Shown piece after piece: positions 493 to 5,809 of a DNA stretch of 9,500 bases. Each line of letters opens with the position of its first letter. Within the stretch, counting starts at the first letter, position 1. The position numbers and the translations under genes were made by a program. The notes under the pieces are model-generated. The model was not told the DNA's origin. It worked only from the letters and a program-made list of their open reading frames with translations, and made no database searches. Location of the stretch: NCBI GenBank assembly GCA_009903905.1, contig WYEI01000206.1, forward strand, positions 1 to 9,500, in the 5' to 3' direction. Source of the DNA: Pyrobaculum sp. (GTDB taxonomy: Archaea > Thermoproteota > Thermoprotei > Thermoproteales > Thermoproteaceae).

Positions 493-1257
493 TTATCCCC
501 GCCTAGCCGACAGTATCCAGCCGGTGTGCACCACGTCGAAAGTTTCAGGTCGTAGCTCGCCGACCACCGGCTTCCAGCGGCGCAGAAACACCTCATAAAT
601 AGAGACGTCGTAGAAACCAGCCCTTTTCAGCCCCTCTACGCTCTTGCTCATGTGTTCAACTGTGGTGGAGAAAATCACGACGGTGCCCCCCGGCTTCAAC
701 GCCTCCACGGCGTGGTCCAGAGCGTTCCAGGGGTCGCCCATGTCCAGGACAACTGCGTCAACCCGCACCGAGCCGAAGCCAAACTTCACAACATCTCTCA
801 ACTGAAGATCTACGTAGTCCATAAGGCCAATGTTTTTGAGGTTCCTCACGGCGATGCGCAGATGATCGACCCTCTTTTCAAAACTGTAGACAAGCCCCCA
901 AGGCCTCACGTACCAGGCCAAAACGGCTGTTAAGAACCCCGAGCCCGTCCCCGCCTCAGCCACCACCGAGCCGGGGCCCACCGCCGCGGCCTTGACTATG
1001 TAAACGGCGTCTTTAGGGTATATGGCCTGGGCACCTAGACGAAATTTATGTTCAATCACGTCGAAAACCGTGGCCGGCACAGCCCTAAACCTCACTCCAA
1101 TGGACGAAACCACCGAGAAGCCATGAGGCGCCCCCACCAAGACGTCAGTATCGACATACCCCCTGATCGTCTGCACCTCCCCGCCTCCCGCCCTCACCAC
1201 AGTCCTAAACCCCCCACGCTCCTCAACCAACAAGACCCAATCACCCCGTCTAAACAC
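493..1257 (-). CDS. trmI: tRNA (adenine-N1)-methyltransferase, TrmI family
   Basis: Predicted SAM-dependent enzyme making m1A at position 58 (and 57 in some archaeal tRNAs) of the T loop; the family acts as a homotetramer. I chose the GTG at 1255-1257, giving 254 residues, close to the length I recall for archaeal TrmI. Visible features: N-terminal small domain with FRRGDWVLLVE (2-12), IYPKDA (79-84) matching the family's 'HPKDA' signature, SAM-binding motif I EAGTGSG (101-107), an acidic residue after the next strand (E127), the LDMGDP loop (171-176) equivalent to the catalytic LDLPxP, and the C-terminal RPETFDVVHTG. The frame stays open upstream to a GTG at 1374, but those 39 residues fit no part of the family. 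The tttaaaaa box at 1276-1283 lies 22 nt before the chosen start. Confidence 0.88.
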   Translation of the reverse strand: MFRRGDWVLLVEERGGFRTVVRAGGGEVQTIRGYVDTDVLVGAPHGFSVVSSIGVRFRAVPATVFDVIEHKFRLGAQAIYPKDAVYIVKAAAVGPGSVVAEAGTGSGFLTAVLAWYVRPWGLVYSFEKRVDHLRIAVRNLKNIGLMDYVDLQLRDVVKFGFGSVRVDAVVLDMGDPWNALDHAVEALKPGGTVVIFSTTVEHMSKSVEGLKRAGFYDVSIYEVFLRRWKPVVGELRPETFDVVHTGWILSARRG

Positions 1258-1275
1258 AGAGAAGACTCCCCCTTG

Positions 1276-1283
1276 TTTAAAAA
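1276..1283 (-). promoter_or_regulatory. TATA box of the TrmI-type methyltransferase gene
   Basis: The sequence tttaaaaa (TTTTTAAA on the minus strand) is centred about 22 nt upstream of the GTG at 1257. That spacing matches the other promoters in this window and supports the 254-residue start. The rest of the 138-nt gap up to the neighbouring stop at 1396 contains a 10-bp palindrome, GCCTCGAGGC, but no other feature I can support. Confidence 0.6.
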
Positions 1284-1395
1284 CTAGTGCTACGCTACGT
1301 TCAGCACCGCCGTTGCGTTTTAGATGTGCGCCAACACCTGTTTTGAAGAGCGCCTCGAGGCATCGGCAACTCACAACGGTCTCCAGCCGTAAGCC

Positions 1396-2091
1396 TCAGA
1401 ACTTGACGACGAGATACCACTTTCTGAAGTACCTCATCGCGGCGGCGACGTCTGTATTCCTCCTTGTAGCGGCTGCTCTATAGCTAGTCAGCAACACGTC
1501 GCCCTCCTCAAACCCCGCGGCCGAGGCGGAGATCGCCAACGGCACAACCACATCCGGCAACACCCTATACAGAGGCTCCCCTCCCCTGCTCCTCAAGACT
1601 AGGCACAGCTTATGAAGCTCCGGCAACACCTCCATAAGCAAGTCACATTTAGGAACGCCGCCGAGCCTTATCCCCAACATAGAGTTAGTCAAAACATCGA
1701 GCTCATCCCCTCCAATCCTCATGGACAGGTAAGAAACCACCTCAGGAGTAACTACTCTAGAAAGCCGGAATCTAAGAAGGCTCCGCGGCGGCAAGATCGA
1801 AGTGCCGACAACGGCTAAGTAGGTCAACTCCGCGGCAAGCCCCCGCAACACCCGCCTCACTCTATCGTCTAAAAGAGACAACACGACGAAGAGAGACAAA
1901 CCCCATAAATAGCCGACATACAACGCAGTGGCCGTAAACGCCGGCTCACGGCGCCTCGCGGGTAAGACAACGGCCATGAAAACCCAGAAAGCCGCCTCCC
2001 CAAGACTTGAGAAACACTTGAAAAATAAAGAAGACAGAAACAGACCTCCAACAAATACGAGCTCTAGACACGCTGTAAAACTTAAAAACAC
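1396..2091 (-). CDS. Hypothetical membrane protein
   Basis: I do not recognise this protein. The longest reading, from the GTG at 2091, gives 231 residues. It has hydrophobic segments at about 8-24, 33-45 and 55-73 and a further one near 87-103. A mostly soluble second half follows, ending in a basic/aromatic tail (RYFRKWYLVVKF). The start is uncertain: the GTG overlaps the TATA box of the divergent tRNA gene and cannot be a leaderless start from it. The next in-frame start is the ATG at 1975-1977 (193 residues), with a GGGGAGG sequence roughly 15 nt upstream. The gene lies on the same strand as the downstream methyltransferase, 138 nt away, with a separate promoter between them. Codon use and length suggest a real gene, but the first 38 residues are doubtful. 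Confidence 0.6.
   Translation of the reverse strand: MFLSFTACLELVFVGGLFLSSLFFKCFSSLGEAAFWVFMAVVLPARRREPAFTATALYVGYLWGLSLFVVLSLLDDRVRRVLRGLAAELTYLAVVGTSILPPRSLLRFRLSRVVTPEVVSYLSMRIGGDELDVLTNSMLGIRLGGVPKCDLLMEVLPELHKLCLVLRSRGGEPLYRVLPDVVVPLAISASAAGFEEGDVLLTSYRAAATRRNTDVAAAMRYFRKWYLVVKF
2082..2088 (+). promoter_or_regulatory. TATA box of the tRNA-Arg gene
   Basis: The sequence ttaaaaa is centred 24 nt upstream of the first base of the mature tRNA (2109), the expected TATA spacing for an archaeal tRNA gene. It is A/T-only and nearly symmetric, so it could also recruit transcription towards the minus-strand membrane-protein gene. No start codon sits at the matching distance on that side. Confidence 0.6.
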
Positions 2092-2140
2092 GAGACATGT
2101 GGAAAACGGGGCCCGTAGCTCAGTCAGGATAGAGCGGCGG

Positions 2141-2165
2141 AGGACCCAGCCTCCGGTCCGCCGTG
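2141..2165 (+). other. tRNA intron 1 (anticodon stem, position 30/31)
   Basis: This 25-nt intron fits the splicing endonuclease substrate. The central 4-bp helix is CGGC (2135-2138) with GCCG (2160-2163). The two 3-nt bulges are GGA (2139-2141) and TGC (2164-2166), cut after the second base. The inner stem is GGACC/GGTCC (2142-2146/2155-2159) with an 8-nt loop, and the outer exon helix is GAG/CTC (2132-2134/2167-2169). Removal restores an anticodon stem with four standard pairs and one G-U. Confidence 0.9.
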
Positions 2166-2191
2166 CCTCCTAAGCCGTAGGTCGTGGGTTC

Positions 2192-2210
2192 ACGGCGAGA
2201 GCCGGCCTAC
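2192..2210 (+). other. tRNA intron 2 (T loop, position 56/57)
   Basis: This 19-nt intron interrupts the T loop. It is almost entirely a CGGC-GAGA-GCCG tetraloop hairpin (2193-2204). The central helix is GGGT (2186-2189) with GCCT (2205-2208), containing two G-U pairs. The bulges are TCA (2190-2192) and ACG (2209-2211), cut after the second base. The outer helix is weak (one good pair), so this is a relaxed motif. Removal leaves the standard T loop TTCGAAT. Confidence 0.85.
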
Positions 2211-2267
2211 GAATCCCACCGGGCCCGCCATCTTCTTGACACACAGAGCCCCCACAGCGTACTTCGG

Positions 2268-2978
2268 TTACGTGGCCGCTGGCTTTTCGTGTCGCCTCTT
2301 GAGGCGGGGGTATGTCTTTAGGAGGATGTAGTGGGCTAGTAGCGCCGTCGACACGGCAACGAGGACTCCGGTCCAGAGGGTTGTATCCACCGACATGTAG
2401 GAGCTACTTACGGTTACTGGCCTGGAGTATAAGTTTTCTATTGGGTAGGTGACTGTGTCTGGTGATATGGCGTAGCTAATCGTGTCCGCTTCTGTTGCGG
2501 CGTCGTTCTTAGGCGGACTTCTCGGCGGGTTTACGAACTTCCTGCGGTAGGGGGTCTTGGGCGGCTTGTCGCCTAGCGCGTACCAAGTGACGAGCGTGAA
2601 GTTTCCTTTGGTGATGGGTGTTCTGCCCACCGCCAGCTCCACCACCGCCTTACTTGTCCCGTTTTGCACCTCCAGCGTCCATTTCTCTAGGCCGGGGGGC
2701 GCACCCGGCGGGCTGTGTGTAAGGGCTTCGCTGGGTATGTGCAGTATGTACCTAGACATGTTGTAGTATGGCATCGGCGTCCACTGCCCAGCGGCGGCTA
2801 TGTAGGTGTCGATGTACTCCGGGACGTAGGTCACGTGGACTGGCACCCACTCTTCCCCGTCCCACGCATATATGTGTAGGCCGTCTAGGTCGGGGCCGCC
2901 TTCTACGTAAACCTCCACATAGCCAGCAACCACGGCTACGGACAGCGACAACACCACCAGCGGAATGTCCTTCAACAT
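2268..2978 (-). CDS. Predicted secreted, C-terminally membrane-anchored protein
   Basis: I do not recognise the family. The 236-residue product has a hydrophobic signal-like N-terminus (about 5-18, PLVVLSLSVAVVAG), an extracellular region rich in Tyr, Pro and Thr, and one C-terminal transmembrane segment (about 201-220). A short basic tail, KTYPRLKRRHEK, follows, the layout of a type I surface protein. Three N-glycosylation sequons are visible: N73-M-S, N106-G-T and N126-F-T. A Pro-rich segment (139-156) could be a linker, and a Ser/Thr/Tyr-rich stalk precedes the anchor. The ATG at 2976-2978 lies 22 nt after a TATA box (2997-3003), implying a leaderless mRNA. Its 3' end converges on the tRNA gene, 37 nt away. 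It may be a cell-envelope protein; no catalytic motif is seen. Confidence 0.75.
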   Translation of the reverse strand: MLKDIPLVVLSLSVAVVAGYVEVYVEGGPDLDGLHIYAWDGEEWVPVHVTYVPEYIDTYIAAAGQWTPMPYYNMSRYILHIPSEALTHSPPGAPPGLEKWTLEVQNGTSKAVVELAVGRTPITKGNFTLVTWYALGDKPPKTPYRRKFVNPPRSPPKNDAATEADTISYAISPDTVTYPIENLYSRPVTVSSSYMSVDTTLWTGVLVAVSTALLAHYILLKTYPRLKRRHEKPAAT

Positions 2979-2996
2979 GTCTCAAAAGAAAGCGGC

Positions 2997-3003
2997 TTAT
3001 AAA
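2997..3003 (-). promoter_or_regulatory. TATA box of the surface-protein gene
   Basis: The sequence ttataaa (TTTATAA on the minus strand) is centred 22 nt before the ATG at 2978, consistent with a leaderless transcript. Confidence 0.6.
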
Positions 3004-3082
3004 CATGCCTTCCGTGCCGGCGCGGTTGTTGCGCCGACGGAGGCGGCGGTGGATGTGTGGATTACGTATTTGCTGGCTGGGG

Positions 3083-3712
3083 CTATGTTCGTTCTGCGTA
3101 GCGGCCTGATGCTCTTATTTTCGCCACTTCTTTTTCCACGGCGTTTGCCCTTTGGCCCATTTCTTCTCTGTAGCCTGTCCAGAAGAGGTCTCTTAGCTTC
3201 TCGGCTTTGTCCCCGTAGAGGTCCAGCGTCCTCAGCAAGACGTTTACGTCTCTTGCCATCAATATGGCTGTCCTGCGCGTCCACCCCCGCCGTATGTCGC
3301 CCAGTCCGAAGTCTATGAAGTAGAGGTCTCCCCGCGACAGTATGATGTTTGTGGGGGCTAGGTCTCCGTGTATCAGCCCGGCGCGGTGCATCCTGCCCAC
3401 TAACACGCCTACGTCTCTCAGGTGGCTGTAGTCGCCGCGGTTGAGCAACTCGCGTAGGTTTTCTCCAGCTACGTACTCCATTATTATTACAGTTTCTTCG
3501 GGGTCGAAGAAATACACCGGGGGCACCTTGACGCCTATTGTATGGGCCATGTACATGTTCCGCACCTCGTTTATGGTCCTCCGCCTCCTTATCTGGTAGT
3601 CCAGGTTGGGGTCTCGGTATCTCTTCGGCTTGCGCCACTTCAAAACTGCCCTCATCCCGAACCAATCTACGACGTATATCTCGGCCTCTGCGCCCTTGGC
3701 TAGGAGGTCCAC
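3083..3712 (-). CDS. bud32: KEOPS complex protein kinase/ATPase Bud32
   Basis: Small atypical kinase of the KEOPS complex, which with Kae1, Cgi121 and Pcc1 makes N6-threonylcarbamoyladenosine (t6A) at A37 of tRNAs reading ANN codons; in archaea Bud32 acts mainly as an ATPase. It is 209 residues, the normal length for the stand-alone form. Motifs: glycine-poor loop KGAEAEIY (6-13), ATP-binding lysine in VLKW (K25), helix-C glutamate in TINEVRN (E49), catalytic loop HGDLAPTN (115-122, usually HGDLTTSN) and metal-binding DFGLG (134-138). The basic C-terminal tail is typical. The start is the GTG at 3710-3712, with AGGAGG four bases upstream and the shared TATA box 22 nt upstream. Kae1 is not adjacent. 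The downstream surface-protein gene has its own promoter. Confidence 0.95.
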   Translation of the reverse strand: MDLLAKGAEAEIYVVDWFGMRAVLKWRKPKRYRDPNLDYQIRRRRTINEVRNMYMAHTIGVKVPPVYFFDPEETVIIMEYVAGENLRELLNRGDYSHLRDVGVLVGRMHRAGLIHGDLAPTNIILSRGDLYFIDFGLGDIRRGWTRRTAILMARDVNVLLRTLDLYGDKAEKLRDLFWTGYREEMGQRANAVEKEVAKIRASGRYAERT

Positions 3713-3727
3713 GGCGCCTCCTAAAAT

Positions 3728-3740
3728 GTATTAAAAATAC
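3728..3740. promoter_or_regulatory. Shared palindromic TATA box between bud32 and the radical SAM gene
   Basis: The sequence gtatt-aaa-aatac is a perfect 5+5 bp inverted repeat around AAA, centred at 3734. The bud32 GTG (3712) is 22 nt to the left and the radical SAM GTG (3754) is 20 nt to the right. An AGGAGG also occurs 3-4 nt before each GTG (3717-3722 on the minus strand, 3745-3750 on the plus strand), making the intergenic region nearly mirror-symmetric. Confidence 0.65.
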
Positions 3741-3753
3741 GTATAGGAGGTAC

Positions 3754-4906
<1,153 letters not shown>

Positions 4907-4918
4907 GATTATTTGTAA

Positions 4919-5809
4919 TTATCTAAGGGTGTATATCCTGATCCCCATCTCGTGCCTTACGTCTATCTTTCCCGTCAGCATGAGGATCGCGGGTATATAC
5001 GGCGAGTCCTCGATCCGTCTCCTCGTCTGAGGCTCCTTGAGGGCGGCGCGCCACTCCTCGTGGATCTTCGCCGGTGGGGCAAGCCTAAGCGCTCTTTCTA
5101 GTAGCTTCGCAGTGGTCTTAATGCATCTCCCCTGGGGGCAGTCTTGTCCGCCTGCCACGACCTTTACCCCGTAGTAGACCATTGGTATCGTTATGCCGAG
5201 CCCCGTGTGGGGTTCTCTAAACAGAACCGCGGATCTGTTCCTCCGCCGCGACGCCAGCCGCCAGAGCTGTTGCGAAATTGTGTCAAGGTCGTCAATGCCG
5301 AAGACGCCGCTACGGATTATCCTGTCGGCGACCTCCTCCTCGTCCTCCCCCTTCACCTTTAAGGACCTGAGCTGAACCGCTAGGTCGAAGTCGTTGCCGT
5401 CTCCGCCGCCGCCGCCGAGGATCTTGGAGCTTAGGGTCTCTATAGGCTTCCCGTTGGTTAGTAGCTTCTCAACTCCTTCTACCTTCGTGCATGTATACAC
5501 CGAGAGAGAGGTGGAGTTCCCCGCGACGACGGACCTCACCAGGGGAGGTCCCGCGACCCAGCACTCCTTCTCCCCCACCAGTTTGTATATAGACGTGTGG
5601 AGGCGCGGGGCGTATTTCACCTCCGCTCCGTAGTTGTCCACAGCCTCCAACACCGCGATTTTGTTGAAGACGGGACCTGAGGTGAGGACCGACAGCTTGG
5701 TCTGCCTAGCCAGGCTGAGTACCCCGAGCCCTCCCAGCGGCGACGAGATCGCCAATATGTGGCGGGGCTTTAAGGTCTCTAGGCACTCTGGAAGAGATGT
5801 GCAGAGCAT
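4919..5809 (-). CDS. Hypothetical protein, possible degenerate PLD-like (HKD) domain
   Basis: The 296-residue protein is not recognised as a named family. Its N-terminal third (about 15-106) follows the pattern of a single phospholipase-D-like nuclease domain: an 'ISSPLGG' strand-turn, 'KLSVLT', then LHTSIYKL (70-77) where a catalytic L-H-x-K would sit. WVAGPPLVRSVVAGN (84-98) follows where 'VGSxNLT...N' would sit. The catalytic Lys is Ser73 and the usual Ser/Asn residues are Pro, so it would be inactive; this is inference. A glycine run (GGGGGDGND, from a ccg repeat at 5403-5417) separates it from a charged region resembling winged-helix or coiled segments, then an unassigned C-terminal half. 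The ATG at 5807-5809 lies 25 nt after the TATA box at 5830-5838. It converges with the radical SAM gene. Confidence 0.65.
   Translation of the reverse strand: MLCTSLPECLETLKPRHILAISSPLGGLGVLSLARQTKLSVLTSGPVFNKIAVLEAVDNYGAEVKYAPRLHTSIYKLVGEKECWVAGPPLVRSVVAGNSTSLSVYTCTKVEGVEKLLTNGKPIETLSSKILGGGGGDGNDFDLAVQLRSLKVKGEDEEEVADRIIRSGVFGIDDLDTISQQLWRLASRRRNRSAVLFREPHTGLGITIPMVYYGVKVVAGGQDCPQGRCIKTTAKLLERALRLAPPAKIHEEWRAALKEPQTRRRIEDSPYIPAILMLTGKIDVRHEMGIRIYTLR

Follow-up and report, generated by a model that had tools for sequence, protein, structure and literature searches.

How can a tRNA-Arg(CCU) gene that is broken twice, the second time inside the T loop, yield a normal tRNA, and where do its two introns come from? 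The gene occupies positions 2109-2230 on the plus strand of the window, by which we mean the whole stretch of 9,500 nucleotides that was analysed. Exon 1 (2109-2140; tRNA positions 1-30), as delimited by sequence and cloverleaf, is followed by intron 1 (2141-2165; 25 nt, position 30/31), exon 2 (2166-2191; tRNA positions 31-56, with the anticodon CCU at 2169-2171), intron 2 (2192-2210; 19 nt, position 56/57, in the T loop) and exon 3 (2211-2230; tRNA positions 57-73 plus the CCA, which is encoded at 2228-2230), all in plus orientation. Removal of both introns restores a normal tRNA: the minimum-energy fold of the spliced 78 nt is an exact cloverleaf (-35.1 kcal/mol) with the anticodon CCU, and the orthologue in genome G003 (locus L239) is naturally free of introns.

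The central claim of an earlier note on this DNA, a tRNA-Arg(CCU) gene with two non-canonical introns of 25 and 19 nt at 30/31 and 56/57 and none at the usual site 37/38, is confirmed by this parse. Its remark that standard tools miss such genes also holds here, as ARAGORN reported 0 tRNAs in the window and the Rfam search of the window no tRNA. Non-canonical bulge-helix-bulge (BHB) introns of Thermoproteales tRNAs were reportedly described by Marck and Grosjean in 2003 and by Sugahara in 2007 and 2008, as relayed by a review. Excerpts of a review list both 30/31 and 56/57 among the published tRNA intron positions, with intron lengths of 11-129 nt, in agreement with the note's statement that such introns are known from the order, and describe a tRNA-Pro(UGG) gene of P. 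islandicum that carries introns at 25/26, 37/38 and 56/57 (PMC4090602). The window gene is one more multi-intron Thermoproteales tRNA gene of a known type, both of whose intron positions are published; it resembles the genes in those excerpts in the positions and in the presence of several introns per gene and differs in the particular pair found in Arg(CCU), a pair that may already stand in the primary intron lists.

A BRE/TATA-like promoter box (TAAAACTTAAAAAC; 2076-2089, plus strand) lies 33 nt upstream of nucleotide 1 and matches 13 of the 14 positions of the box found upstream of the G001 tRNA genes, the 14-nt consensus being derived from the same genes that were tested. None of 113 control 70-mers scored 11/14 or more, and four of the 113 reached 10/14. 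A gene for a TrmI/GCD14-type tRNA methyltransferase (493-1374, minus strand; Pfam GCD14, E 3.8e-31; TrmI-like_N, 1.4e-07) lies close to tRNA-Arg(CCU) in the window and, by coordinates, in G001, G005, G010 and G011 among others. Archaeal relatives of this enzyme presumably methylate A57/A58, which adjoin the 56/57 intron site. As a separate observation, the window contains an HgcC-like RNA match at 4859-4988 on the minus strand (33 bits; 30.8 bits for its counterpart at 2129-2258 of L001, both below the Rfam gathering cut-off of 50), which overlaps an open frame without Pfam hit.

The genome nearest to the window is G001 (Pyrobaculum sp. WP30). All 122 nt of the gene are identical in the window, in G001 (L001) and in G009, the introns being kept as strictly as the exons, while the flanks differ: window positions 1415-1948 are 79.8% identical in L001, and positions 1132-3754 are 92.5% identical in L016. 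Arg(CCU) was identified in 17 of 19 genomes of the family and was not among the loci examined for G014 and G015. Twelve of the 17 carry the 30/31 intron (G001, G004, G005, G006, G008, G009, G010, G013, G016, G017, G018 and G019), which is absent from Arg(CCU) of G002, G003, G007, G011 and G012; the 56/57 intron occurs in three (G001, G009 and G011). Five genes carry the 30/31 intron only (G004, G005, G008, G010 and G013), and that of G011 (L110) the 56/57 intron only. Other combinations add 37/38 (G017), 37/38 and 45/46 (G016), a V/T-region insert (G006), 58/59 (G018), or 45/46 and 59/60 (G019) to the 30/31 intron; the genes that have neither window intron show a D-arm insert (G002), a 37/38 intron (G007), a V-region insert (G012) or, in G003, no intron at all. 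Since natural empty sites exist for each of the two, the introns are independent insertions and their pair is one combination of many. The comparison of Arg(CCU) genes across relatives that the earlier note had proposed places the pair as rare but not unique, in two of 17 genes (G001 and G009) plus the window.

Some further features of the parsed loci are recorded in their own right. Arg genes with the anticodons UCG, GCG and CCG in G001 (L104, L105 and L204) and G009 (L108) carry a mismatch of position 1 (C or U) with C72 that was seen in none of the parsed genes of the other genomes. The 30/31 intron of G009 Arg(GCG) (L108) includes two GACCCAGCC units as well as a stretch that resembles the Arg(CCU) intron, which gives the impression of a recombination between the two. 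G003 L236 contains a 5' fragment of about 35 nt resembling tRNA-Lys, with no 3' part in the stretch examined.

By sequence likeness, both window introns are members of short-intron families common to several tRNA genes of one genome. In G001, 56/57 introns of the window type occur in Arg(GCG), Arg(UCG), Arg(CCG) and Lys(CUU), with 95-97% identity over 58-60 nt, and G011 carries a 16-nt version in Arg(CCU), Arg(UCU), Arg(CCG), Arg(UCG), Arg(GCG), Lys(UUU) and Lys(CUU). The 30/31 intron, with relatives (GGACCC[AG]G...) in Lys and Arg genes of several genomes, is the more widespread of the two in Arg(CCU). For the 56/57 introns (29 introns in 10 genomes, with the window counted as G001, and G001 and G009 not treated as mutual orthologues), 17 of the 18 that could be tested resemble a paralogue in the same genome more than any orthologue elsewhere, the exception being that of G016 Trp(CCA); the mean identity is 0.82 within genomes (64 pairs) and 0.71 between orthologues (34 pairs), in a sample retrieved by a search with the 3' portion of the window gene, which favours similar introns. 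Five T-loop introns of G016, G018 and G019 were placed at 58/59 or 59/60 by the register search and left out of this test. In an earlier sample that included them the count was 21 of 22 and none of 2000 label shuffles reached the observed difference, a shuffle that applies to that sample and not to the 17 of 18. The 56/57 intron was probably gained in the WP30-like lineage from sibling Arg and Lys tRNA genes.

Among the alternatives, one that deserves to be kept in mind as possible is that the 56/57 introns of one genome owe their likeness to gene conversion among tRNA genes whose 3' halves are almost the same, and not to transposition. In its favour, the Arg and Lys carriers of G001 have the V region, T arm and 3' strand of the acceptor stem around the intron in common. 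On the other hand, the base 57 next to the intron is G in Arg(CCU) and Lys but A in Arg(GCG), Arg(UCG) and Arg(CCG), in G001 as well as in G011, and related 56/57 introns are found under other T stems, in G001 Asn, Cys and the tRNA of L206 and in Pro(UGG) of G005 (L127), which has a window-type 56/57 intron plus further inserts. As base 57 keeps its isoacceptor identity, movement of the intron is somewhat favoured over conversion, though not decisively. Excerpts of two papers attribute tRNA intron transposition in Thermoproteales to Fujishima 2010 (PMC4033280, PMC4090602); as far as these go, very similar introns in different tRNA genes were likewise the sign there, and the G011 family differs in covering all five Arg genes and both Lys genes that were read.

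How the two introns might be recognised was examined by motif and by energy folding. Intron 1 consists of A, GGACC, CAGCCTCC, GGTCC, GCCG and TG, with GGACC and GGTCC forming a hairpin; its BHB central helix pairs C25-G26-G27-C28 (2135-2138) with GCCG (2160-2163) between 3-nt bulges, and the outer helix is GAG/CTC. Intron 2 consists of A, the hairpin CGGC-GAGA-GCCG, GCCT and AC; here the central helix pairs G51-G52-G53-U54 (2186-2189) with GCCT (2205-2208), i.e. GGGU with GCCU including two G-U pairs, and there is almost no outer helix. From the letters alone each junction has a one-nucleotide ambiguity, 29/30 or 30/31 for intron 1 and 55/56 or 56/57 for intron 2. A 4-bp central helix with two 3-nt bulges is present by sequence in both introns and in a single register each, namely at 30/31 and at 56/57; the alternative junction registers from -4 to +4 have no BHB core for either intron and were ruled out. 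When the introns were shuffled, a BHB core arose in 120 of 200,000 trials for intron 1 and in 53 of 200,000 for intron 2. Both structural descriptions in the earlier note are borne out at this level: a full bulge-helix-bulge with flanking stems for intron 1, as a sequence pattern with its core in one register, and a minimal GAGA-tetraloop hairpin with two G-U pairs and a weak outer helix for intron 2.

Energy folding gives another picture. For intron 1 the BHB is not the minimum-energy pairing: a fold constrained to contain its core is less stable by 3.7 kcal/mol at 37°C (-55.8 vs -59.5) and by 2.8 kcal/mol at 85°C (-13.3 vs -16.1), since the exon bases concerned prefer competing pairings with the intron; in the local fold at 37°C exon positions 27-30 pair with CCGU of the intron. 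The core has a pair probability of 0.02 or less in all ten Arg(CCU) 30/31 introns folded locally at 37°C, i.e. the window intron and nine orthologues, all placed in the window's exon context. As all nine orthologues share the low probability, the energy model may be limited in its treatment of BHB motifs, and the disfavoured core may be a trait of the group or of the model and not of the window gene. For intron 2 the minimum-energy fold includes the central helix without the 3' bulge, which is lost where the helix is prolonged by four pairs (U50-A, G49-C, C48-G57 and U47-A58).

These folds leave room for a reading in which the introns are real and one or both splice sites are recognised in a non-textbook structure, a near-continuous helix for intron 1 and a single-bulge helix for intron 2. 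We regard this as rather unlikely, even if energy folding prefers both alternatives and relaxed motifs are known among archaeal tRNA introns according to review excerpts (PMC4090602). At intron 2, siblings with AA before A57 cannot form all four extra pairs, and all four central pairs are present in 26 of the 28 parsed 56/57 introns; at intron 1, the window keeps the BHB core by sequence.

With the bulge-helix-bulge reading retained for both introns, we consider it very likely that a Pyrobaculum relative has at this locus a working gene for tRNA-Arg(CCU), which is transcribed from its own promoter as a single precursor, in which each intron forms a BHB-type hairpin of its own, both introns are predicted to be cleaved and may be removed in either order, and the introns stem from families of the same genome. 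Each intron would fold together with the neighbouring exon nucleotides into its own splice-site hairpin, the crenarchaeal tRNA splicing endonuclease would cleave both introns, and the exons would be ligated. A splicing-endonuclease gene (PF01974, 96.7 bits) is present in G001; a second subunit was not found in that genome with the PF01974 model, which matched one gene only. As the hairpins occupy separate exon nucleotides (22-34 and about 47-60), they could fold simultaneously, and both BHB cores and a closed acceptor stem are compatible in one fold (-55.8 kcal/mol at 37°C, -13.3 at 85°C). Because the two hairpins share no exon nucleotide, no splicing order would be forced by the modelled structure. 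In this the window gene differs from cases given in excerpts by the authors of tRNAscan-SE 2.0, in which one intron must leave first (PMC8450103).

Each intron would hold back a part of the mature fold. Before splicing, intron 1 would block formation of the anticodon stem because its GCCGU copies the exon strand 39-43, so that the 5' strand of this stem would have the intron as partner before splicing and the exon afterwards. Intron 2 would hold the T loop open until it is excised, and modification of the T loop (e.g. by TrmI at 57/58) should therefore await its removal.

The relatives add a second aspect to position 30/31. Outside the window, G001 contains five tRNAs as apparent halves broken at this site: Lys(CUU), Arg(CCG), Asn(GUU), Trp(CCA) and Thr(GGU) (L203, L204, L307, L308 and L309). 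For Lys(CUU) and Arg(CCG) there is no 5' half beside the 3' part; their 5' half ends at G30 and runs on into a trailer and TTTTTT. Asn(GUU), Trp(CCA) and Thr(GGU) are built alike. The 3' halves of all five tRNAs lie downstream, each preceded by a promoter box and by a leader that is complementary to the trailer of its 5' half. The trailers are 21-24 nt long and directly followed by a T-run (five T in Thr), and the distance from the end of the 5' half to position 31 is 541 (Lys), 735 (Arg), 3754 (Asn), 939 (Trp) and 749 nt (Thr). The promoter box precedes each of the five 3' halves by 55-56 nt and matches there at 13-14 of 14 positions. In the seven intact genes tested, that of the window among them, and in the five 5' halves it is found 30-36 nt ahead of nucleotide 1 and scores 10-14 of 14; the regions upstream of Arg(UCU) and of the Lys 5' half have only 10/14, a score also reached by 4 of the 113 controls.

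When the trailers were paired with the leaders, the cognate leader is the best partner in four of five rows and the cognate trailer in five of five columns, the Lys trailer binding the Trp leader (-30.7) slightly better than its own (-29.4). Of 5000 shuffled pairs per tRNA, the cognate energy was reached by 28 for Lys, 46 for Arg, 9 for Asn and none for Trp or Thr. Unconstrained folds of the joined halves are cloverleaf-like for Arg only and of other shape for Lys, Asn, Trp and Thr. The anticodon arms of Lys(CUU), Arg(CCG), Asn, Trp and Thr were found once each in G001, by a pattern that genes with a 37/38 intron would escape. G001 Thr(GGU) (L309) has C33 in place of U33, and the same anticodon-arm pattern was unmatched in the 10 other genomes searched.

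For Trp(CCA) the related genome G009 has an intact gene with a cis 30/31 intron (L320). Its left part (1-486) is 92.8% and its right part (522-859) 93.8% identical to L308 of G001, and between these matching flanks 937 nt in G001 replace 35 nt of G009. Both flanks of the Arg(CCG) and Lys(CUU) halves match around intact genes in G005, though the downstream match of Lys consists of tRNA sequence; for Asn, loci of G003 and G010 each match one flank, and for Thr no clear flank match to the surroundings of an intact gene was found. G001 Arg(UCU) (L205) has a cis 30/31 intron, 45 nt by parse, the ends of which resemble the trailers and leaders; Arg(UCU) of G009 (L243) is without it. To the eye the L205 intron looks as if a trailer and a leader had been connected through a short linker. 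Aligned over 574 positions, the right-hand portions of the Lys and Arg spacers, taken together with the 3' halves, are 77% identical, and a spacer piece of about 250-310 nt recurs in at least 16 further places of G001 (40 of 80 candidates scored). A 100-aa open frame of this inter-half repeat had no Pfam hit. We take the repeat to be reminiscent of the PaREP1 family, a name that Pfam does not support. From these likenesses we infer that a cassette spread inside a 30/31 intron family in G001.

A second, different set is seen in G007, where 5' and 3' halves were read for Lys(CUU), Lys(UUU), Trp, Asn and Arg(UCU) (L335, L336, L340, L342, L343, L344, L345 and L355), with promoters read by eye. For Trp, Asn and Arg(UCU) the two halves are found on separate contigs, although in an assembly of about 130 contigs breaks could hide their linkage; those of Lys(UUU) diverge on opposite strands from inverted-repeat promoters, and those of Lys(CUU) are separated by only some 0.2 kb, so that they could belong to a single gene with a long intron. 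Cognate pairing is best in five of five rows and five of five columns; in an earlier run on four trailers, with the Lys(CUU) leader misplaced, the figure was three of four rows. The split tRNAs of G001 and G007 are predictions from sequence for loci outside the window.

That the five G001 tRNAs are ordinary genes with very long 30/31 introns that are transcribed through is improbable. The arrangement of both halves on one strand, 541-3754 nt apart, would permit it, but a T-run directly follows each trailer of 21-24 nt, a promoter box precedes every 3' half by 55-56 nt, and in G007 the halves of Trp, Asn and Arg(UCU) are on different contigs while those of Lys(UUU) diverge on opposite strands. 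More probably, 30/31 is a site at which introns become gene breaks: Lys(CUU), Arg(CCG), Asn(GUU), Trp(CCA) and Thr(GGU) of WP30 are likely to be trans-spliced from halves because one cassette of terminator, repeat remnant and promoter spread in a 30/31 intron family, with Arg(UCU) keeping what appears to be the same intron without the cassette, Trp showing the states before and after in sister genomes, and the different set of G007 suggesting more than one occurrence.

Split tRNAs of this kind have precedents elsewhere. Excerpts of Chan 2011 describe a tRNA-Lys(CUU) split at 30/31 in Staphylothermus and Nanoarchaeum, state that no trans-spliced tRNAs were seen in five sequenced Pyrobaculum species, and note that the age of split tRNAs is under debate (PMC3218864). 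To the extent of these excerpts, the G001 and G007 genes, though not the window gene, resemble the split Lys(CUU) in the site, in the pairing of leader and trailer and in having apparent promoters of their own; they differ in that each of two genomes of the Pyrobaculum group has five apparent cases, that the G001 loci have a spacer-promoter cassette in common, and that an intact sister of Trp exists in G009. The open-licence literature, searched mostly by title and beginning of the abstract, yielded no report of split tRNAs in Pyrobaculum. For Caldiarchaeum, excerpts of Sugahara 2012 describe heterogeneity of tRNA-Thr(GGU) at one locus, with a proposed integrase element (PMC3293823). The likeness lies, as far as the excerpts go, in close relatives with intact and disrupted versions of a locus; G001 differs in having several loci with one repeated cassette.

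As for the window gene itself, the idea of a decaying pseudogene, with the insertions as damage and tRNA-Arg(CCU) supplied by another gene, is scarcely credible and was rejected on the identity of 122 of 122 nt in three genomes despite changed flanks and on the perfect cloverleaf, with the promoter box in place and a CCU anticodon arm found only once in G001 (by a pattern blind to copies with a 37/38 intron), even though ARAGORN and Rfam missed the gene and the search for a second gene covered the related genome G001.

The very probably functional tRNA-Arg(CCU) gene of the window is an entry point, at which two independent intron families meet in one gene. Its siblings in WP30 bear on the debate, set out in the excerpts of PMC3218864, whether split tRNAs are ancestral or are recently broken intron-bearing genes. 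As one strain has an unbroken gene with a 30/31 intron where its sister has the gene apparently split within the same flanks, with a cassette common to several loci, a late origin would be directly testable in this group.
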